Below are positions 11,390 through 49,400 of a stretch of DNA of 64,000 bases, one piece after another. The stretch's first letter is position 1. Every line of letters begins with the position of its first letter. Made by a program: the position numbers and the translations under genes. The notes below the pieces were generated by a model. That model was not told the origin of the DNA. It worked only from the letters and a program-made list of their open reading frames with translations, and made no database searches. The stretch spans positions 186,001 to 250,000 of the forward strand of contig NZ_JAQQTF010000004.1 in assembly GCF_028561275.1 (NCBI RefSeq), in the 5' to 3' direction. Source of the stretch: Aureisphaera galaxeae. GTDB lineage: Bacteria > Bacteroidota > Bacteroidia > Flavobacteriales > Flavobacteriaceae.

Positions 11390-11427
11390 ACAATTCATCC
11401 ATGGAAAACTACAATTCAGCAAGATTC
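11390..11427 (+). promoter_or_regulatory. Predicted LytTR operator upstream of TonB receptor
   Basis: ACAATTCA occurs at 11390-11397 and again exactly 21 bp later at 11411-11418, a perfect 8-bp direct repeat. A third degenerate half (AAGATTC, 11421-11427) follows 10 bp on. A -7-like element (CATCTTTG) lies at 11454-11461. The same arrangement recurs at 13666 and 16319. LytTR regulators such as AgrA are known to bind 9-bp direct repeats about 21-22 bp apart. Confidence 0.65.
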
Positions 11428-11486
11428 ATATAATGGATGTAACGGAACCATTGCATCTTTGACCTATGAAACAAATAGCTCGAAAA

Positions 11487-13661
11487 ATGAAACCCGCCAA
11501 AAAAACAACCATTACCTTCTTACTATTTTTATTATTGTCCACCTTTTCTTTTGGGGTGTATGCCCAATCTGAAATCTCGGGGACCGTACTTCAGAAAAAT
11601 GGAACCCCCGTTCTGGGAGCCAATGTATACCTTGATGGAACCTACGATGGAGCCTCCACCGATGCCAATGGAAAATTTTCGTTCACAACCGAGGAAACTG
11701 GGGTGCAGACCTTGGTCATCTCCTATGTTACCTACGAAACCTTTATGATGGCTGCCGATGTGAGTCAGCTTAAGAACGTGTCCATTACCCTTAAGGAAGA
11801 TGTGAATTCCTTGGATACCGTTGTGATCTCTGCTGGTACCTTTGAAGCGGGTGACAATAGTAAAGTATCTGTGTTGAAGCCTTTAGATGTGGTTACCACG
11901 GCCAGTGCTCTGGGGGATTTTGTAGGTGCTTTGCAGACGCTACCAGGAACTACAACGGTAGCTGAAGATGGACGTCTTTTTGTACGTGGTGGAGATGCTG
12001 GGGAAACCCAAATCTTTATCGATGGGATTCGAGTATTTACACCCTATACACCCACCACCAATAATATACCGACGCGAGGAAGATATAGCCCATTCCTATT
12101 CGATGGAATTACCTTCTCTACAGGAGGATACTCTGCCGAGTATGGACAAGCACTTTCTTCCGTATTATTATTGAATACCATAGACGAACCCGACCAGGAA
12201 AAGACAGATATTGGTGCGATGAGTGTAGGAGCTTCTTTAGGAAATACCCAAAAATGGGAGAAAAGTTCTTTGAGTTTTAATGGGACCTATATCAACTTGG
12301 CACCTTACATTGCTGCCTTTCCCGATAGAAACGACTGGGAGAAACCTTTTGAAGGGTATGCCGGGGAGACCGTGTTTCGAAGAAAATTTGATAAGGGATT
12401 ATTGAAGTGGTATGCCGCTTTCGATGGCACCAACTTTGAATTGACCCAAGAAGATATCAATTTAGAGGACGGACTTAATTTCAAACTGAACAACAACAAC
12501 TTCTACACCAATGCCAGTTACAGTGGTGATTTAGGGGAAAGCTGGAAAATTCGTGGAGGAGGAAGCTTTACCTACAGCAAAAATGATATCGGAATTATAG
12601 ATAGCGATATCGACAATACCGAAAAGTCGTTTCACTTAAAACTGAAATTGCGCAAGCGTTTTAGCAATCGATTCAAATTGAGCGTAGGTGCTGAGCAGTT
12701 CTTCACGGACTTCGATGAGGATTTTCAAAATCCTTTTGCACAGGCCAACTACGGATTTAATAATGATATTTCAGCTGTATTTGCAGAGGGGGATATCATT
12801 TTCTCCAAGAAATTTGCCATGAAGCTTGGGGTTCGTGGGGAGTACAGTGCTTTATTCGATGATGCAACGATTTCTCCAAGAGCTTCTATTGCCTACAAGA
12901 CAGGGAAGTCCAGCCAGATATCTTTGGCCTATGGGGATTTCTATCAGCAACCCTTTAATGATATCCTAAAATTTCAACAGGATTTAGAATCGCAAAAGAC
13001 ACAGCATTATATCCTAAACTATCAGTACTCAGCCAAAAACCGCATATTCCGTGCAGAAGCCTATCGAAAAGAATATAGTAGTCTCATTACCTATGATACG
13101 CAAGATCCCACCTTCGACAGTAATTACGGAAATGGTGGTGACGGATATGCACAGGGAATCGATGTTTTCTGGAGGGATAACAATTCCATCAAGAACGTGG
13201 ATTACTGGATAAGCTACTCGTTTTTGGATAGTGAGCGAAAGTTCAACAACTATCCGGAAAGAACCCGACCTCCCTTTGCCAATACGCATAATCTTTCGGT
13301 AGTGGCCAAATGGTTCATTAGCGATTGGAAGAGTCAGATAGGGTTTAGCCATCAATACGGAAGTGGTCGTTCCTATACCAATCCCAATATCCCAGGATTT
13401 TTGCAAGAGCAGACCCGTGACTACAATAGTACGAGTGTAAACTGGGCCTACCTTATTTCGCAACAGAAGATCTTGTACTTCTCTGTGAACAATGTATTCG
13501 GATTCAACAACATTAACGGATATCAATATGCAAGTACTGCCGATGTGAATGGAAACTTCAACAGAAGAGCGTTGTTGCCGGCAGCAGATCAGTTTTTCTT
13601 CGTCGGATTCTTCATGACGATAAGTGAAGATGGAACCGACAATCAGCTGGATAATCTATAG
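11487..13661 (+). CDS. TonB-dependent receptor with carboxypeptidase-like N-domain
   Basis: The protein has 724 residues from this start. A signal peptide ending 'GVYAQ' is followed by a CarboxypepD_reg-like domain ('ISGTVLQKNGTPVLGANVYL'), a plug with 'GGDAGETQIFIDGIRVF', and a 22-strand-type barrel to the C-terminus ('FFFVGFFMTISEDG'). An in-frame ATG at 11466 is possible. The start at 11487 is preferred because it gives a cleaner signal and lies 59 bp from the operator, matching 59 and 60 bp at the two sister sites. It probably imports or senses a ligand for the LytS/LytTR system encoded downstream. Confidence 0.85.
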   Translation: MKPAKKTTITFLLFLLLSTFSFGVYAQSEISGTVLQKNGTPVLGANVYLDGTYDGASTDANGKFSFTTEETGVQTLVISYVTYETFMMAADVSQLKNVSITLKEDVNSLDTVVISAGTFEAGDNSKVSVLKPLDVVTTASALGDFVGALQTLPGTTTVAEDGRLFVRGGDAGETQIFIDGIRVFTPYTPTTNNIPTRGRYSPFLFDGITFSTGGYSAEYGQALSSVLLLNTIDEPDQEKTDIGAMSVGASLGNTQKWEKSSLSFNGTYINLAPYIAAFPDRNDWEKPFEGYAGETVFRRKFDKGLLKWYAAFDGTNFELTQEDINLEDGLNFKLNNNNFYTNASYSGDLGESWKIRGGGSFTYSKNDIGIIDSDIDNTEKSFHLKLKLRKRFSNRFKLSVGAEQFFTDFDEDFQNPFAQANYGFNNDISAVFAEGDIIFSKKFAMKLGVRGEYSALFDDATISPRASIAYKTGKSSQISLAYGDFYQQPFNDILKFQQDLESQKTQHYILNYQYSAKNRIFRAEAYRKEYSSLITYDTQDPTFDSNYGNGGDGYAQGIDVFWRDNNSIKNVDYWISYSFLDSERKFNNYPERTRPPFANTHNLSVVAKWFISDWKSQIGFSHQYGSGRSYTNPNIPGFLQEQTRDYNSTSVNWAYLISQQKILYFSVNNVFGFNNINGYQYASTADVNGNFNRRALLPAADQFFFVGFFMTISEDGTDNQLDNL

Positions 13662-13665
13662 GATT

Positions 13666-13703
13666 ACAATTCAGTCTCGATTTTCTACAGTTCGGTAGGA
13701 TTC
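13666..13703 (+). promoter_or_regulatory. Predicted LytTR operator upstream of DUF2141 gene
   Basis: ACAATTCA (13666-13673) and ACAGTTCG (13687-13694) are direct half-sites 21 bp apart, with a third half (AGGATTC) at 13697-13703. A -33-like TTTTC (13704-13708) and a -7 element GAATTTTG (13728-13735) follow directly, so a bound activator would touch RNA polymerase. The site is 59 bp from the start at 13763. Confidence 0.65.
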
Positions 13704-13762
13704 TTTTCAAAGATTGCCCATTTCAGTAGAATTTTGAATCACTAACTCAAAAGAACAACACA

Positions 13763-14176
13763 ATGCATACCGTACTAACTTTTCTAGCTTTACTGATCGC
13801 CGGGATGGTGGCACAAGCACAGAATACGATAGAAGTGACCATAACCAAGTTTAAAAACAACGATGGAAGCGTAAGGGTAGGTCTTTACGATGATAAGGGA
13901 AAATGGTTGGATAATACCTACAAATCGCTTTCCTCAACCATTGAGAACCAAGAAGCCACCGTAATCTTTACCGATGTGCCCGATGGTGTCTACGCTATTT
14001 CCTGTTACCACGATAAAGATGATAATGGCCAACTGAATATGTTCATGGGGACTTTTCCATCAGAACCTTATGGCTGTTCCAACGGAGCTCGTGGATTTTT
14101 CGGTCCGCCCACATGGGAGGATGCCCATTTTGAGGTAAATGATCAGGAAACCCGTAAACTCGATATACGATTATAA
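13763..14176 (+). CDS. DUF2141 domain-containing exported protein
   Basis: This is a 137-residue protein with a signal peptide ending 'MVAQAQ'. The mature part fits DUF2141: 'GSVRVGLYDDKGKW', 'FTDVPDGVYAISCYHDKDDN' and 'YGCSNGARGFFGPPTWEDA'. The DKDDN(G) loop resembles a calcium-binding turn. DUF2141 proteins are small periplasmic beta-sandwiches, frequent in Bacteroidota near TonB receptors and sensor kinases. Here the gene starts the second transcription unit of the LytTR island. Confidence 0.85.
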   Translation: MHTVLTFLALLIAGMVAQAQNTIEVTITKFKNNDGSVRVGLYDDKGKWLDNTYKSLSSTIENQEATVIFTDVPDGVYAISCYHDKDDNGQLNMFMGTFPSEPYGCSNGARGFFGPPTWEDAHFEVNDQETRKLDIRL

Positions 14177-14194
14177 CCGCAACATCTAGAAATC

Positions 14195-14308
14195 ATGTTA
14201 GGGATTATTTTACGATTATTGGGGAGAAACAAGTCCATTAAAGTGCTTACACTGGTATTTACAACACTGTTGATAATGGGCATAGGAATACAAGTCTTTT
14301 TGTCTTAA
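14195..14308 (+). CDS. 37-residue single-helix membrane peptide
   Basis: An ATG-initiated frame of 37 codons lies between the DUF2141 and TPR-like genes on the same strand. The product begins 'MLGIILRLLGRNKSIKVLTL' and continues as a hydrophobic helix ending 'IQVFLS', giving a positively charged N-side and one membrane span. Its place in an operon with a sensor kinase suggests a small accessory membrane protein. No homologue is recognised, and without conservation data it could be fortuitous. Confidence 0.45.
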   Translation: MLGIILRLLGRNKSIKVLTLVFTTLLIMGIGIQVFLS

Positions 14309-14344
14309 TTACTATATAAACGCTAAATAACTTAAATTGTCATC

Positions 14345-14974
14345 ATGAAAAAATTACTTCTTATTACCGTTGCACTATTGTCCATTAATGCTTTCGGGCA
14401 AGGCAAATACGAAAAAGGAATGATGAAGGCTTTCGATCTTTGGAAAAACGGAAAGTCTTCGGAAGCCTCTAATTTGTTCGAAAGAATTGCACAAGCAGAG
14501 CAGGATAACTGGTTGCCGCCTTTTTACGTGGCCCAAGTGAATATCTTCAATAGTTTCAACGAAAAGGATGAGGAAGTACTAACAGCTCAATTAAAGAAAG
14601 CACAAGACTTCCTGAACGATGCCAAGGCCATTTCTAAGGACAATCCAGAGATTTTGGTTGCACAAGCACAATTGTATACGGCTTGGGTGGCTTTCGATGG
14701 ACAACGTTTCGGAATGACCTACGCGCCTAAGATCGCTCAACTGTATGAGGAAGCCTATAAATTAGAGCCGGGGAACCCACGTGTTGCCTTCGGTAAGGTG
14801 GAATGGGATTTGGGAACAGCCCGATTCTTCGGTCAGGATACATCTACCTTCTGTGAAGATTTAGCGTCTGCTGTTGCTTTGTTCGAAACCTACGAGCCCA
14901 AAGGAGAGTTTCATCCAAGGGGTGGAGGCGATTATGCCAAGCAATCGCTAGAACAGAATTGTAAAAAAGAATAA
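14345..14974 (+). CDS. Exported TPR-like protein of the LytS/LytTR island
   Basis: The 209-residue protein has a signal peptide ending 'NAFGQ'. The mature part is an array of TPR-like helical pairs ('AFDLWKNGKSSEASNLFERI', 'LYTAWVAFDGQ', 'LYEEAYKLEPGNPRVAFGK'). A C-terminal Cys pair (in 'STFCEDL' and 'EQNCKKE') could form a disulfide. It sits 9 bp before the histidine kinase gene and probably acts in the periplasm as a partner of the receptor or the kinase. This is inferred from context. Confidence 0.75.
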   Translation: MKKLLLITVALLSINAFGQGKYEKGMMKAFDLWKNGKSSEASNLFERIAQAEQDNWLPPFYVAQVNIFNSFNEKDEEVLTAQLKKAQDFLNDAKAISKDNPEILVAQAQLYTAWVAFDGQRFGMTYAPKIAQLYEEAYKLEPGNPRVAFGKVEWDLGTARFFGQDTSTFCEDLASAVALFETYEPKGEFHPRGGGDYAKQSLEQNCKKE

Positions 14975-14983
14975 ATTAAGCAG

Positions 14984-16309
14984 ATGAAATTTCTGAAAGA
15001 ATTTGGCAAAGCCTTTTCCATTGGTGTCCTTGTCTTTTTAGTCATAGGGCTCATCCAATATTTGAATGGTAATGTGATAGAGAAGGACCGCTTGTTAAAG
15101 TACTTTGTGTACAATCAATTGTATTCCGTAGTGCTTTATATGGTCAATATCTACTTCTTTCAGTTTTTATGGAAAAGATACGGGCCTCGTTTATTTACAC
15201 GAAGAATATTTGTTAGGGGCGCATTTGGGGTATCGCTAGTCACTATAGTGGCTTTGGTCTTTCTTGAGATTGTAACCTCCATTCTTATCGAAGGGCATAC
15301 ATTGTCAAGCTTCATAGAGCACCAGAGTGTTCAGTCCTACTATCCTGGCTTTACCATATCTATGGTAATTACTGCCATATTTTATACGGTATTCTATTAC
15401 CGCCATAAGCAGGAACATAAGGTAAAGGAGCAAAAGATCATTGCGAAAACGGCTTCTGCCCAGTTCGACGCCTTAAAGAATCAATTAGATCCGCATTTTC
15501 TATTCAATAGTCTCAATGTGCTTACAAGTCTTATTGAAGAGAATCCGGTGGCGGCAACGAAGTTCACCACTTCCCTTTCTAAAGTGTACCGCTACGTGCT
15601 GGAGCAGAAGAACAAGGAGCTTGTGACGGTAGAGGAGGAGCTGAAATTTGCCAAAATCTATATGTCGTTGATTAAGATGCGATTCGAAGACAGCATTGTC
15701 TTTACCATTCCCGAAAATATAAACAACCCTGAAGCGAAAGTGGTGCCACTTTCGCTTCAGTTGTTGCTGGAAAATGCGGTGAAACACAATATGGTAACCC
15801 CTTCGCGAAAACTACACATTTCCATTGTTGAAGAGAACGGCAATTTGGTGGTGAGGAATAACGTTCAGCCCAAGAAAGTAGTGAAAGAAAGCAGTGGAGT
15901 GGGACTTCAGAACATTCGACAGCGTTATTATCTGATCACAGATCGCCCGGTAGATATTAAAGACGACGGGCGGCAGTTTTCGGTGGCCATTCCCTTGCTC
16001 ACCCAAAATGTTTCAAGAGCTAAAGAGACTCAGGATACTTACATTTCAGCAAAGAAATACGATCGGGCCAAGAAGAAGGTGGAAGAACTAAAAGGGTTCT
16101 ATATCCACTTCGGAATTTACTGCATTATGGTTCCGGTATTCATATATCTTAATGTGATAAGCACAGGTTTCCCTTGGGCGCTATTTCCTATTATTGGATG
16201 GGGTGCTGGGGTAGGAGGCCATGCAATGGAGGTCTTTGGTTACAACCCACTCCTTGGGAAAAACTGGGAGGAACGTAAGATTAAGGAGCTCATGGATAAG
16301 GATCGGTAA
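14984..16309 (+). CDS. LytS-type histidine kinase with C-terminal 2TM domain
   Basis: The 441-residue protein has four N-terminal membrane helices (about 10-30, 45-62, 78-100, 118-136) and a His_kinase (PF06580) core with 'QLDPHFLFN', where H171 is the phosphorylated residue. The ATPase domain has the N-box 'LLLENAVKHN' near residue 264 and 'GVGLQNIRQRY'. Residues 355-441 form a 2TM domain of two helices ending 'NWEERKIKELM'. The same domain is repeated in the next four genes, so the kinase may assemble with them through this module. Confidence 0.88.
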   Translation: MKFLKEFGKAFSIGVLVFLVIGLIQYLNGNVIEKDRLLKYFVYNQLYSVVLYMVNIYFFQFLWKRYGPRLFTRRIFVRGAFGVSLVTIVALVFLEIVTSILIEGHTLSSFIEHQSVQSYYPGFTISMVITAIFYTVFYYRHKQEHKVKEQKIIAKTASAQFDALKNQLDPHFLFNSLNVLTSLIEENPVAATKFTTSLSKVYRYVLEQKNKELVTVEEELKFAKIYMSLIKMRFEDSIVFTIPENINNPEAKVVPLSLQLLLENAVKHNMVTPSRKLHISIVEENGNLVVRNNVQPKKVVKESSGVGLQNIRQRYYLITDRPVDIKDDGRQFSVAIPLLTQNVSRAKETQDTYISAKKYDRAKKKVEELKGFYIHFGIYCIMVPVFIYLNVISTGFPWALFPIIGWGAGVGGHAMEVFGYNPLLGKNWEERKIKELMDKDR

Positions 16310-16318
16310 TCCGTTTAT

Positions 16319-16356
16319 ACGATTCATCCCAAACATTCTACAGTTGGGTCCAATTC
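16319..16356 (+). promoter_or_regulatory. Predicted LytTR operator upstream of the 2TM array
   Basis: ACGATTCA (16319-16326) and ACAGTTGG (16340-16347) are half-sites 21 bp apart, with a third half CCAATTC at 16350-16356. A -7-like TACTTTTA lies at 16382-16389, in the same relative place as at the two sister sites. The site is 60 bp from the ATG at 16417. It overlaps only the few bases after the kinase stop, so the 2TM/regulator genes can be transcribed separately from the kinase. Confidence 0.65.
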
Positions 16357-16388
16357 ATTGTTACGAAACCACCTTTCAGACTACTTTT

Positions 16389-16411
16389 ATAGTGTAATTA
16401 TTAAACACTAT
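16389..16411. promoter_or_regulatory. 7-bp dyad just upstream of first 2TM gene
   Basis: ATAGTGT and ACACTAT are perfect inverted arms separated by nine A/T bases, ending 5 bp before the ATG at 16417 and next to the predicted -7 element. It could be a repressor operator or an mRNA leader hairpin covering the start. Confidence 0.4.
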
Positions 16412-16416
16412 TAATC

Positions 16417-16716
16417 ATGAAACTTTTAGAAAATAGCGAACAAGAACGTTACCTCCGAGCCAAGAAACAGGTAGAAGAAATGAAAGGCTTTTATATGCAT
16501 CTTACCATTTACCTCATTTTTGTGTTTATCTTTATTTGGATAAACGTGAGAACCACTTCATTTCCTTGGGCCATTTTCCCAATTACAGGTTGGGGATTGG
16601 GGATATTGGGCCATGCTGCTCATACCTTTAACTTCTTTCCATTTTTAGGAAGGGACTGGGAGCAAAGAAAGATCAAGGAGATCATGGAGAAGGAAAAGTC
16701 TTCAATGAAATGGTAG
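16417..16716 (+). CDS. 2TM domain-containing protein 1
   Basis: This 99-residue protein consists almost entirely of one 2TM domain (PF13239 type). An N-terminal amphipathic helix ('RYLRAKKQVEEMKGFYMH') is followed by two membrane helices (about 28-45 and 53-72) and a cytoplasmic end 'DWEQRKIKEIMEKE'. It is close in sequence to the C-terminal domain of the preceding kinase, sharing the 'FPWAxFPIxGWG' segment. It starts the four-gene 2TM array. Confidence 0.85.
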   Translation: MKLLENSEQERYLRAKKQVEEMKGFYMHLTIYLIFVFIFIWINVRTTSFPWAIFPITGWGLGILGHAAHTFNFFPFLGRDWEQRKIKEIMEKEKSSMKW

Positions 16717-16739
16717 ATCAATTAAAAAACAACTTCGTC

Positions 16740-17060
16740 ATGGAACTGGATAGCAAAGAGAACAAGCAGAACAAATACCTACGTGCCAAGGAGCAAGTAG
16801 CGGAGATCAAGAAGTTTTATACCAGCTTGATGTTCTATGTGGTATTTATCGGGTTTCTTGCTTACCTAAATTACTATTCCAATCAATGGAGGTATATGTG
16901 GTTCCTTTGGGCTGCCTTAGGATGGGGAATAGGCTTGGTATTTCAAGCACTAAAAGCCTTCAGATGGACTCCTTTCATGAATAAGGACTGGGAAGAGCGC
17001 AAGATCCGTGAGTTCATGGATAAAGAAGAAGAAAAAGAAAGAAGAGACCGATGGAGTTAA
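16740..17060 (+). CDS. 2TM domain-containing protein 2
   Basis: The protein has 106 residues with the same layout: 'KYLRAKEQVAEIKKFYTS', two hydrophobic helices separated by an aromatic loop ('SNQWRYMWFLW'), then 'DWEERKIREFMDKEEE' and a basic end 'RRDRWS'. An in-frame ATG at 16710 overlaps the previous stop, but it exists only because the preceding protein ends in Trp (aATGGtag). The ATG at 16740 follows an A-rich leader like those of the other two downstream array genes, so it is preferred. Confidence 0.82.
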   Translation: MELDSKENKQNKYLRAKEQVAEIKKFYTSLMFYVVFIGFLAYLNYYSNQWRYMWFLWAALGWGIGLVFQALKAFRWTPFMNKDWEERKIREFMDKEEEKERRDRWS

Positions 17061-17071
17061 TAAACAATACT

Positions 17072-17413
17072 ATGGAACCCAACAGCTACGAGAAATACGA
17101 AAGAGCCAAAAATAGAGTAAAGGAGATAAGAGGATTTTACAGTCATATCATAATCTTCTTTATCATAAACACATGCATCTATGTCTTACGGTTTTATTTA
17201 TTGCCCAAGTGGGGTGTTATAAGTGACGATGAAGGCTTTCAAAATTGGTTGAACTGGAATACATATCTCTTACCACTTTTTTGGGCGGTAGGGATCGCTA
17301 TCCATGGCATTTGGACCTACCGACACAAGTTTGTCAACATTAAAAAATGGGAAGACCGCAAGATTAAAGAATTTATGGACGAAGAAGACAAGGAAACACG
17401 AAGATGGAAATAA
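17072..17413 (+). CDS. 2TM domain-containing protein 3
   Basis: The protein has 113 residues with the 2TM layout: 'KYERAKNRVKEIRGFYSH', a first helix ('IIIFFIINTCIYVL'), a longer loop of about 30 residues than in proteins 1 and 2, a second helix ('YLLPLFWAVGIAIHGIW') and 'KWEDRKIKEFMDEED'. An ATG at 17051 lies within the end of the preceding gene (RW codons). The ATG at 17072 is preferred for the same reason as in the neighbouring 2TM genes. Confidence 0.82.
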   Translation: MEPNSYEKYERAKNRVKEIRGFYSHIIIFFIINTCIYVLRFYLLPKWGVISDDEGFQNWLNWNTYLLPLFWAVGIAIHGIWTYRHKFVNIKKWEDRKIKEFMDEEDKETRRWK

Positions 17414-17424
17414 TAAACAACAAC

Positions 17425-17757
17425 ATGGAATATTTTGATAAAGATAAATACGAACGCGCTAAGAAGCGCATGGAAGAGATCAAGGGCTTCTATACGCACC
17501 TGGTAGTTTACATAGTCATTAATGTGGCCCTATTTTTAGTAAACCTAGGAATTTTTACCAAAGGTTGGATGGGAATTGAATTTCCCGGATGGGCTGTTTT
17601 TTCAACACCCTTTTTCTGGGGAATAGGATTGGTAGGCCATGGACTGTATGTATTCCAGGACAAATTCAAGTTCTTTAAAGATTGGGAAGAGCGAAAGATC
17701 CAAGAATACATGGATGAAGAGGAAGAAGAATTTAAAAAGACATCCCGTTGGGATTAA
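17425..17757 (+). CDS. 2TM domain-containing protein 4
   Basis: The protein has 110 residues: 'KYERAKKRMEEIKGFYTH', two membrane helices ('LVVYIVINVALFLVNLGIF' and 'FFWGIGLVGHGLYVF') and 'DWEERKIQEYMDEEEE'. The alternative ATG at 17404 arises from the Trp codon that ends protein 3. It is followed 30 bp later by the LytTR regulator gene, so the array and regulator are probably one transcription unit. Confidence 0.82.
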   Translation: MEYFDKDKYERAKKRMEEIKGFYTHLVVYIVINVALFLVNLGIFTKGWMGIEFPGWAVFSTPFFWGIGLVGHGLYVFQDKFKFFKDWEERKIQEYMDEEEEEFKKTSRWD

Positions 17758-17787: not shown

Positions 17788-18543
17788 ATGAACGTACTCA
17801 TTATAGAAGACGAAAAACCCTCTGCAAGAAGATTGCAGCGTATGTTAGAACGCCAAAATGTGGATGTGGATACCATGCTGCATAGTGTAGGCGAATCGGT
17901 GGAGTGGTTTGCTAATAATCCACACCCGGATCTTATTTTTTTGGACATCCAATTAAGCGATGGCCTTTCTTTTGAGATTTTCGATGAGGTGGAGGTAAGC
18001 AGTGCTATTATATTTACGACGGCCTTCGATGAGTACGCCCTACAGGCCTTTAAACTGAACAGTATCGATTATTTACTGAAACCCATAGATGAAGAGGAAC
18101 TGGAGGCTGCAGTTGAAAAATACAAGGCCCGTGCGCCTCAACAACAGAACGTTCAGTTAAATTTCGATGACATTAAGAAACTACTCACCAATCCAGTGGA
18201 GCGTGAATACAAGAAGCGCTTTACCACCAAGATCGGGCAACACATTAAGATGATCCCTGTAGACGAGATCGAATGTTTTTATTCCGAAAACAAGGGCACC
18301 TATGCCCATACGGTCGATGGTAGGGACTATCTGCTGGATACGACCCTAGAGAACTTGGAAGGGGAAATCTCTCCCGAGGTGTTTTTTAGGATCAATCGTA
18401 AGTTCTATGTGAATATCAACGCCATTCGGGATATCATTAGCTATACCAACAGCCGACTGCAATTAAAACTGAATTCTTATAAAGAGCAGGATGTTATTGT
18501 AGCTCGGGAGAAGGTGAAGGATTTTAAGCTGTGGTTGGAGTAG
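17788..18543 (+). CDS. LytTR family response regulator
   Basis: The 251-residue protein has a receiver domain (residues 1-115) with the acidic pair in 'IIEDEKPSARR', the phospho-acceptor D53 ('LIFLDIQLSDG'), the 'FTTAFDEYALQAF' switch region and 'DYLLKPID'. A linker is followed by a LytTR DNA-binding domain (about 140-251), seen in 'IECFYSENKGTYAHTVDGRD' and 'FFRINRKFYVNI'. It is the cognate partner of the kinase at 14984. It is the natural candidate to bind the 21-bp-phased repeats at 11390, 13666 and 16319. Confidence 0.9.
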   Translation: MNVLIIEDEKPSARRLQRMLERQNVDVDTMLHSVGESVEWFANNPHPDLIFLDIQLSDGLSFEIFDEVEVSSAIIFTTAFDEYALQAFKLNSIDYLLKPIDEEELEAAVEKYKARAPQQQNVQLNFDDIKKLLTNPVEREYKKRFTTKIGQHIKMIPVDEIECFYSENKGTYAHTVDGRDYLLDTTLENLEGEISPEVFFRINRKFYVNINAIRDIISYTNSRLQLKLNSYKEQDVIVAREKVKDFKLWLE

Positions 18544-48672: not shown

Positions 48673-49400
48673 TGCAGAAAGTGATTATCGTAGATGACGA
48701 GGCTTCCGGAAGGAAATTAATTACGCAATATTTGGAAGATTATCCAGAGCTCGTTGTCATTGCCCAAGCGAATAATGGAGTAGATGCCGTAAAGGAAATC
48801 AATAGGTTTAAACCCGATTTGGTGTTTTTGGATATTCAAATGCCTGGGCTTACTGGGTTCGAGGTATTGAATCATTTGGAAGAACTTCCCCAAATTATCT
48901 TTTCTACGGCCTACGACAAATATGCCCTAAAGGCGTTCGATGTACATGCGGTAGATTATTTACTGAAACCATACACCAAGGAACGTTTCAGTAAAGCAAT
49001 TGAAAAACTGGATGTTACAGAGAATCAAAAAAGCATTGGGCCACTTGCGGCCGATTTAATGCTAAAAAGCTCTTCCTATCCCGAACGGATTTTGGTCTCC
49101 TTTCAGAAAAAGCTTATTACCATTGCTACTACCGATATTCTTTGGATTGAAGCATTTGGGGATTATTCTAAACTTCATACAACCGCCGAAACCTATGTGA
49201 GCAACTTTGGAATTTCCCAATTGGAGGAAAAACTGGATCCCAAATTGTTCTTACGGGTACATCGCTCTTCTATTATCAATATCAATGGGATTGAGCAATT
49301 GGATAAATATGCCAAATCCTATGATGTGACCCTAAAGAATGGAGATGTCGTACGTGTGAGTCGCGGATATATGGACGCCGTGAAGAAACTTATATTTTAG
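48672..49400 (+). CDS. LytTR family response regulator
   Basis: The 242-residue protein has a receiver domain with 'VIIVDDEASGRKL', the phospho-acceptor D54 ('LVFLDIQMPG'), 'FSTAYDKYALKAF' and 'DYLLKPYT'. The LytTR DNA-binding domain (about 140-242) shows 'DILWIEAFGDYSKLHTTAE' and 'FLRVHRSSIININ'. It is translated from the kinase transcript (1-bp overlap) and is expected to bind the 20-bp-phased repeat at 47451. Confidence 0.9.
   Translation: MQKVIIVDDEASGRKLITQYLEDYPELVVIAQANNGVDAVKEINRFKPDLVFLDIQMPGLTGFEVLNHLEELPQIIFSTAYDKYALKAFDVHAVDYLLKPYTKERFSKAIEKLDVTENQKSIGPLAADLMLKSSSYPERILVSFQKKLITIATTDILWIEAFGDYSKLHTTAETYVSNFGISQLEEKLDPKLFLRVHRSSIININGIEQLDKYAKSYDVTLKNGDVVRVSRGYMDAVKKLIF

Follow-up and report, generated by a model that had tools for sequence, protein, structure and literature searches.

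Background

In operators of LytTR-type regulators, two repeats of 9-11 nt, direct or inverse, flank a gap of 11-13 nt (PMC4847170). For AgrA, at the P2 and P3 promoters of Staphylococcus aureus agr, the promoter-proximal repeats are centred at about -60 and DNA is contacted by R198, N201 and S202 of the motif FFRCHNS (PMC4227749). In the LytTR regulatory systems (LRS) HdrRM and BrsRM, which are positively autoregulated, most repeats have a 12-bp gap and tend to lie 10 bp before the -35 element; an LRS pairs a LytTR regulator with a membrane inhibitor and is distinct from two-component systems (PMC6193735). LytTR operators of such geometry are already known. Here, a 64,000-nucleotide stretch of the Aureisphaera galaxeae genome (contig NZ_JAQQTF010000004.1, positions 186,001 to 250,000; the window) was analysed, in which three promoters of one signalling island carry direct repeats with a phase of 21 bp. 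Judging from sequence and its conservation, these repeats are very probably the operator of a self-regulated two-component system made of a histidine kinase and the LytTR response regulator encoded at 17788.

Three promoters of the window share a phased direct repeat

The repeat had been described in an earlier sequence-only reading of the window as ACRATTCA-N13-ACARTTSR at 11390, 13666 and 16319, and all three occurrences were confirmed on the plus strand. Operator 1 precedes the gene for a TonB-dependent receptor and lies at 11390-11419, with the halves ACAATTCAT (11390-11398) and ACAATTCAG (11411-11419). Operator 2, at 13666-13695, precedes the DUF2141-TPR-kinase unit (halves ACAATTCAG at 13666-13674 and ACAGTTCGG at 13687-13695), and operator 3, at 16319-16348, precedes the 2TM-LytTR unit (halves ACGATTCAT at 16319-16327 and ACAGTTGGG at 16340-16348). 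Half-sites of 9 bp, a gap of 12 bp and the previously stated phase of exactly 21 bp were found in all three, and no fourth match was present in the window even when one mismatch was allowed, in agreement with what had been noticed before. Shuffled versions of the window contained a mean of 0.05 matches and none of 100 shuffles reached three.

Downstream of each operator and on the same strand stands a -7 box, namely CATCTTTG at 11454-11461, GAATTTTG at 13729-13736 and TACTTTTA at 16382-16389, with inferred transcription starts at about 11466, 13741 and 16394 respectively. Operator 2 has no mismatch to the family pattern described below; at site 1, the distance from operator to -7 box is one base longer than the family norm and the T-rich stretch of the family logo is missing. 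The first half-site lies 97, 97 and 98 bp from the start codon when the receptor is counted from the ATG at 11487. This ATG leaves a leader of about 21 nt, as at the other two promoters, and is a more likely start than the listed ATG at 11466, because the latter coincides with the inferred transcription start. The distance of 59-60 bp to the start codon given in the sequence-only reading holds only if counted from the end of a third element and with the receptor starting at 11487. This third element, a degenerate half RATTC 10 bp further on, does occur at the three window sites (11423, 13699 and 16352); at the corresponding position (+33) it was found in none of 71 orthologous sites, and two bases earlier in 3 of 71, and it was consequently rejected as part of the operator.

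In the 2TM promoter, a 10-base inverted repeat (16386-16414, 90% complementary with a 9-nt loop) overlaps both -7 box and leader. Inside the kinase gene, a pair of CRRTT motifs with the same 21-bp phase (QFDALKNQLDPHF, 15461-15486) lies over codons of the H-box region and looks like a coding coincidence.

Phasing and promoter architecture are conserved in orthologous islands

A match to the kinase at E 1e-60 was found in 225 of 299 sampled Flavobacteriaceae genomes. From these 225 genomes, 60 island loci were taken (the best matches with enough contig), giving 61 with the window locus. A second set of 80 loci was found through an alignment of the regulator; one of them (L255) repeats a first-set locus, which leaves 79 non-overlapping loci. 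Pairs of ACRRTT were counted at each distance from 6 to 45, separately for noncoding and coding DNA. The noncoding DNA of the 61 island loci held 74 pairs at 21 bp and 0-2 at every other distance, so that the phased halves are conserved across orthologous islands, a check which the sequence-only reading had proposed. The 79 further loci gave 46 noncoding pairs at 21 bp and at most 3 at other distances, with the same result when L255 was kept in.

For the sequence logo, 71 non-window sites out of 84 site rows, picked by their halves only, were aligned without gaps; the three window sites were left out, together with 10 rows, several of which look real, that lie inside a predicted open reading frame (ORF) or whose nearest gene start is over 450 bp away. 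These strict sites come from 41 of the 60 loci. Numbered from 0 at the first base, the alignment displays a first half ACARTTCAK at 0-8, an A-rich spacer with an A-tract at 14-17, a second half ACARTTSRG at 21-29, a T-rich stretch at 39-42, which is 9 bp from the proximal half, and AnnTTTG at 64-70. In this last element A64 is present in 70 of the 71 sites and T67 and T68 in all of them, AnnTT standing at offset 64 in 70/71. Since the sites were picked by halves alone, the -7 box counts as an independent observation. Over the 46 spacer positions, the 71 sites fall into 67 clusters at 70% identity and are therefore not copies of one another.

The sigma-A promoters of Flavobacterium psychrophilum have their -7 box, TAnnTTTG, at -12 to -5 (PMC9723704), which places the transcription start at offset 75, a purine in 62 of the 71 sites. 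The half-sites would accordingly occupy -75 to -67 and -54 to -46, with their centre at about -60.5.

Orthologous promoters were then scored with a profile of half-sites, T-rich stretch and -7 box, from which sites of the same locus were left out, at thresholds set on 3000 Markov-resampled windows (0.1%, the main one, and 1%). At 0.1% the profile recognised 33/34 TonB-receptor promoters, 53/60 promoters of the DUF2141/TPR/kinase unit and 47/58 promoters of the first 2TM gene, and none of 55 control windows placed at the LytTR start. Conservation in these orthologous promoters thus supports the proposal of a LytTR operator common to the three transcription units. In 9 of the 11 misses among 2TM promoters, the 2TM gene lies at most 26 bp from the kinase gene or overlaps it, so that no separate promoter is expected; at L100 the 2TM gene is 441 bp away and a strict site lies beyond the tested window, and L105 is a true miss. 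Seven promoters of the kinase unit were missed; at three of these loci (L055, L049 and L078) a strict site stands before a different ORF or one farther away, and the others are unexplained.

These results also bear on the idea that the three promoters are alike by chance. Only the small number of sites in the window speaks for it, whereas the 0.05 matches expected there and the conservation of the sites in orthologous promoters refute it, and its probability is practically negligible.

Genome-wide distribution of the site and extent of the proposed regulon

A search of all 19 contigs (4.59 Mb) of the window's genome gave exactly four occurrences of ACRATTCA-N13-ACARTT, at the three window sites and at G000:C12:516260, which was set aside as it has no -7 box at the right distance and 3 mismatches to the extended pattern. 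This 8+6 pattern was useless as a genome scanner when taken alone (15 hits versus 13 for the reversed control at up to one mismatch). Once the -7 box was added and up to three mismatches were allowed, the pattern gave 16 hits versus 1 for the reversed control, and the four hits with 0-2 mismatches were taken as real: the three island sites and a site on the minus strand at G000:C14:180968-181037 (L106). The latter lies outside the window, has no mismatch, and precedes a second DUF2141 gene, located some 16 kb upstream of the island. The whole-genome scan suggested earlier therefore returned the exact core only once more outside the window, there without a -7 box, and also a fourth full site. 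The expectation of a complete regulon within the island did not survive, given this second DUF2141 gene with the same promoter and the targets added by other genomes.

Forty of the 60 kinase-bearing island genomes, most of which had also supplied pattern sites, were scanned in the same manner. The site (at most one mismatch) was found in 40/40, with 143 matches versus 1 for the reversed-pattern control. Each of seven further genomes of the family that had supplied no pattern sites gave 2 to 5 matches, and two of these seven gave one control hit besides. The family genomes lacking the kinase were represented by 21 genomes, 20 of the 74 without kinase match plus G174, which is not among the kinase-bearing genomes and gave no match; a site was found in 2/21, once each in G051 and G006. 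The G051 assembly is fragmented (190 contigs, 88% complete) and its site seems to precede a TonB receptor. Across 295 genomes of the class, 30 had a match, namely 8 of 9 family genomes (the window's own included) and 22 of 286 others. The 26 matches in these 286 genomes, versus 3 reversed-control hits, were nearly all single and with one mismatch; being so sparse, they indicate that the pattern says little outside the family. As an observation apart, L217, L218 and L219, all from one other family of the class, show three or four tandem half-sites like ACNRTTCATG in 21-bp steps, which are possible multi-site LytTR operators.

The surroundings of 55 of the 143 matches, most of them outside the fetched island loci, were retrieved, others such as one in G285 being left out. 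A downstream ORF was present for 54 of the 55, L197 having none; L196 and L197 look like chance matches, and L198 was fetched and left out of examination. The genes behind these 54 matches are closest to the second DUF2141 gene in 24 cases, belong to the DUF2807 family in nine (all Pfam-confirmed) and are orthologs of the TonB receptor in six, followed by beta-lactamase-fold (3), ABA4-like (2) and DUF2306 (2) genes and by one each of a TPR ortholog, a 2TM gene, another histidine kinase and an S41 peptidase; four ORFs are unclassified (two without Pfam match, two not scanned). The regulon in other genomes is thereby extended by DUF2807, ABA4-like, DUF2306 and serine-hydrolase genes. The six receptor orthologs outside the fetched islands, from about 13 kb away up to another contig, keep the operator in genomes where the island itself is without receptor, which argues that the site is selected and not the neighbourhood.

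A promoter element unrelated to LytTR proteins, or a family of repeated DNA carried along by the island, would offer another account of the sites, and the A-rich spacer and T-rich -33 region could indeed be structural promoter features. Such an account is very improbable in view of sites that show no relatedness beyond the conserved columns (67 clusters among 71), of the 143 matches against a single control in the 40 genomes, and of the few gene families that the sites mostly precede (49/54 classified into ten families).

The 17788 regulator as proposed ligand of the operator

The proposed ligand is the response regulator encoded at 17788-18543 (+), which has a receiver (PF00072) and a LytTR DNA-binding domain (PF04397). 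In a fold search with its structure model, full-length ComE was the best match by E-value (4.1e-10), and LytTR domains, DNA-bound AgrA among them, matched over the domain with TM-scores, normalised by target, of 0.73 to 0.82. Sequence searches of the PDB with the regulator or its alignment gave matches (80 and 107) of which all 60 listed cover the receiver part only, and it took the fold search to find ComE and AgrA. In a by-eye alignment, the FFRCHNS motif of AgrA corresponds to FFRINRK in the 17788 regulator, both arginines of which are invariant in 21/21 relatives. Five genomes lack LytTR in an island that is uninterrupted by a contig end, and all five encode an ortholog (76-81% identity) at another place; in one of them (G206) this gene follows a 2TM gene with its own site.

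Several observations weigh against reading the repeats as the operator of this one kinase and regulator. In the coding DNA of the 61 loci, 5 ACRRTT pairs were found at 21 bp, no more than at 26 bp (joint highest, at a low level), and the coding DNA of the 80-locus set held 7 at 21 bp, the highest count, and at most 4 elsewhere. In the profile test, control windows in the kinase-coding sequence passed in 3/61 cases at 0.1% and 8/61 at 1%, with scores of up to 7 versus promoter medians of 31 to 35. These hits lie mostly over the codons of a conserved KQLVTLEEEL-like stretch, as do the three above 0.1%; one lower hit lies over the H-box, which is thus wrong as the source of most of them. The structure model of the regulator has a moderate mean pLDDT of 68.3, and its match to ComE is loose when taken over the full length (TM-score 0.34 to 0.38). 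In the other four of the five genomes mentioned above, the LytTR gene has no listed site next to it, so autoregulation of the regulator is not universal. A further objection comes from G006, which is 99% complete and has neither a kinase match nor a regulator ortholog at E 1e-50, yet carries a good site (L229) before a gene that is DUF2807-like by similarity to the nine others.

G006 is the best evidence against a single cognate regulator, and with it comes the alternative that the repeats serve another of the cell's roughly 40 LytTR proteins, or several paralogs sharing one operator. The window's genome encodes 40 LytTR domains, any other of which could bind these operators, and one site outside the island (L184) precedes a different kinase. 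Against this stand the site carried by the 17788 regulator's own unit, the presence of sites tracking the kinase/regulator pair (40/40 versus 2/21) and the finding that the four full sites of the window's genome are all more than 30 kb from any other LytTR gene, and this alternative appears quite unlikely. A second LytTR-domain gene lies inside the window itself, at 49110-49394 (G000:C14:235110-235394).

Genes of the island and possible history of the system

The island comprises, all on the plus strand, the TonB-dependent receptor with a CarboxypepD_reg-like domain and plug (11487-13661), a DUF2141 protein of 137 aa (13763-14176; PF09912, E 5.9e-29), a TPR-containing protein of 209 aa (14345-14974; PF13428, E 3.4e-5), the LytS-type histidine kinase with a C-terminal 2TM domain (14984-16309; PF06580, PF13239) and, before the regulator, four consecutive stand-alone 2TM-domain proteins (16417-16716, 16710-17060, 17051-17413 and 17404-17757; PF13239 in 4/4). 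Among the 61 island loci, the receptor on the same strand is present in 34, DUF2141 in 24, TPR in 48 and LytTR in 55, and at least one stand-alone 2TM gene, with up to five, was found in 59.

Distant relatives were represented by 19 loci (L306, L307 and L309-L325), of which L317 is without any kinase match. No kinase match reaching the 2TM domain and no stand-alone 2TM gene was found in these 19 loci, the two features being absent together in 18/18 with a kinase match (L306, L307, L309-L316, L318-L325). The ungapped 71-bp module was found in 10 of 18 loci (L307, L309-L325), with scores of 20 to 40 versus a maximum of 9.3 in 36 shuffled loci, and also in L306, a metagenome-assembled genome (MAG) of Flavobacteriales by its title, with a score of 28.5. 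Where a distant locus has a TonB-receptor hit, the module stands before the receptor in 7/8, and in L321 before a TPR gene. Module-bearing distant loci come from Algoriphagus, Rufibacter and Arthrospiribacter, which are Cytophagales, and otherwise from MAGs titled Bacteroidetes; no module was found in L310, L313, L317, L318 and L324, titled Carboxylicivirga (Marinilabiliales), Tannerella, Marinilabilia or Bacteroidales. Another family of the order is represented by two genomes: L238 shows a diverged site before a 2TM-like gene, L239 a weaker site before an ORF. The module is thus conserved in Flavobacteriaceae and reaches Cytophagales.

From this distribution, the receptor, TPR protein, kinase, regulator and operator seem to form an older core to which the 2TM parts were added in the flavobacterial line. 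One may go further and picture an old Bacteroidota circuit, its operator type common to Cytophagales and Flavobacteriales, that was extended when the kinase acquired a fused 2TM domain and the operator gained control of several stand-alone 2TM genes, and in which stand-alone 2TM proteins pair with the 2TM domain of the kinase and provide an induced feedback that tunes it or switches it off. This possible but doubtful reading draws on the 2TM genes in 59/61 loci, the joint absence in 18 distant loci and the 2TM unit being under the operator, that is, on co-occurrence and co-regulation only. We know of no homotypic membrane-domain feedback loop of this kind from other two-component systems.

Proposed circuit

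In the proposed circuit, the membrane histidine kinase with its C-terminal 2TM domain (14984) would phosphorylate the 17788 regulator, two molecules of which would bind the two 9-bp halves ACARTTCAK and ACARTTSRG on the same face of the DNA, two helical turns apart, with the A-rich spacer lying between the two bound half-sites. Placed just upstream of the -33 region with a predicted centre near -60, the operator would activate a sigma-A promoter. The targets would be the TonB receptor, the DUF2141-TPR-kinase unit, the 2TM-LytTR unit and the second DUF2141 gene 16 kb away; as kinase and regulator are both among them, the circuit would be positively autoregulated. Binding, phosphorylation, activation over repression, operon structure and start site are all deduced in this scheme, and the outer-membrane, inner-membrane and probably secreted nature of its targets suggests an envelope or surface response.

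The regulator is probably an activator of these promoters. A variant, counted within this same two-component reading, has it bind and repress, or only tune basal expression, since the sequence leaves the sign of regulation unfixed. It is unlikely: the operator lies wholly upstream of -33 and -7, at the position (about -60) where AgrA binds as an activator (PMC4227749), and positive autoregulation is known for the Streptococcus mutans LytTR systems whose repeats lie immediately before -35 (PMC6193735).

Comparison with known systems

In the literature searched, largely without subscription journals, no account was found of this operator, of a 2TM kinase with a LytTR regulator, or of a link to DUF2141; in the main text of PMC9723704, the terms 'LytTR' and 'direct repeat' are both absent. 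The kinase is widespread (225/299 genomes), yet no study of it was found in that literature. With this operator a regulon is defined that is conserved and open to testing, and the DUF2141, DUF2807 and 2TM families are linked to one signalling circuit. It also provides a probable recognition motif for a single member of the 40 LytTR domains in this genome, and with it a start on how paralogs avoid cross-talk. In a coevolution study of Flavobacterium johnsoniae, each of five lines was mutated either in the LytTR gene FJOH_RS09515 (two lines) or in the kinase FJOH_RS09520 (three lines) (PMC10197871). These two genes have adjacent locus tags and might be orthologs of the pair described here.

The window sites and the conserved peak alike have the 9-bp halves, 12-bp gap and 21-bp phase of a LytTR operator. 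They are located just upstream of the -33 region, centred about 60.5 bp before the inferred start; the regulator is encoded with the sites and co-occurs with them, with the one exception of G006, and the kinase and regulator units both carry operators, in the window as in the 53/60 and 47/58 orthologous promoters. Among described systems, the ComE consensus, aCAnTTcaG-N12-aCAgTTgAG, is nearly identical to the operator here in its halves and spacing, and full-length ComE is also the best fold match of the 17788 regulator by E-value; the Streptococcus system belongs to a different phylum and has different target genes, and no competence genes were seen here. An LRS resembles the present system in its repeats, which here likewise have a 12-bp gap and end 9 bp before the T-rich -33 region; membership in this class was rejected on account of the receiver domain of the regulator and the LytS-type kinase gene of the island. 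The LRS-like repeats predicted in Bacteroides, TCCGGTATTCA-11 bp-ACCGGAAATCA, are the closest published Bacteroidota prediction found and differ in sequence, spacing and regulator architecture (PMC6193735). YpdA/YpdB of Escherichia coli shares with the present system a LytS-type kinase, a LytTR regulator and a direct-repeat pair at the target promoter, and differs in its repeat GGCATTTCAT, its target yhjX and its phylum (PMC4847170). With AgrA, finally, the likeness lies in direct repeats for a LytTR-type regulator centred at about -60 (PMC4227749; about -60.5 here, from the inferred start), whereas the Bacteroidota promoter (-33/-7), the LytS-type 2TM kinase and the membrane and probably secreted targets distinguish this locus from the agr system. 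The operator described here suggests that an operator and promoter geometry of the AgrA type is used with the Bacteroidota sigma factor as well.

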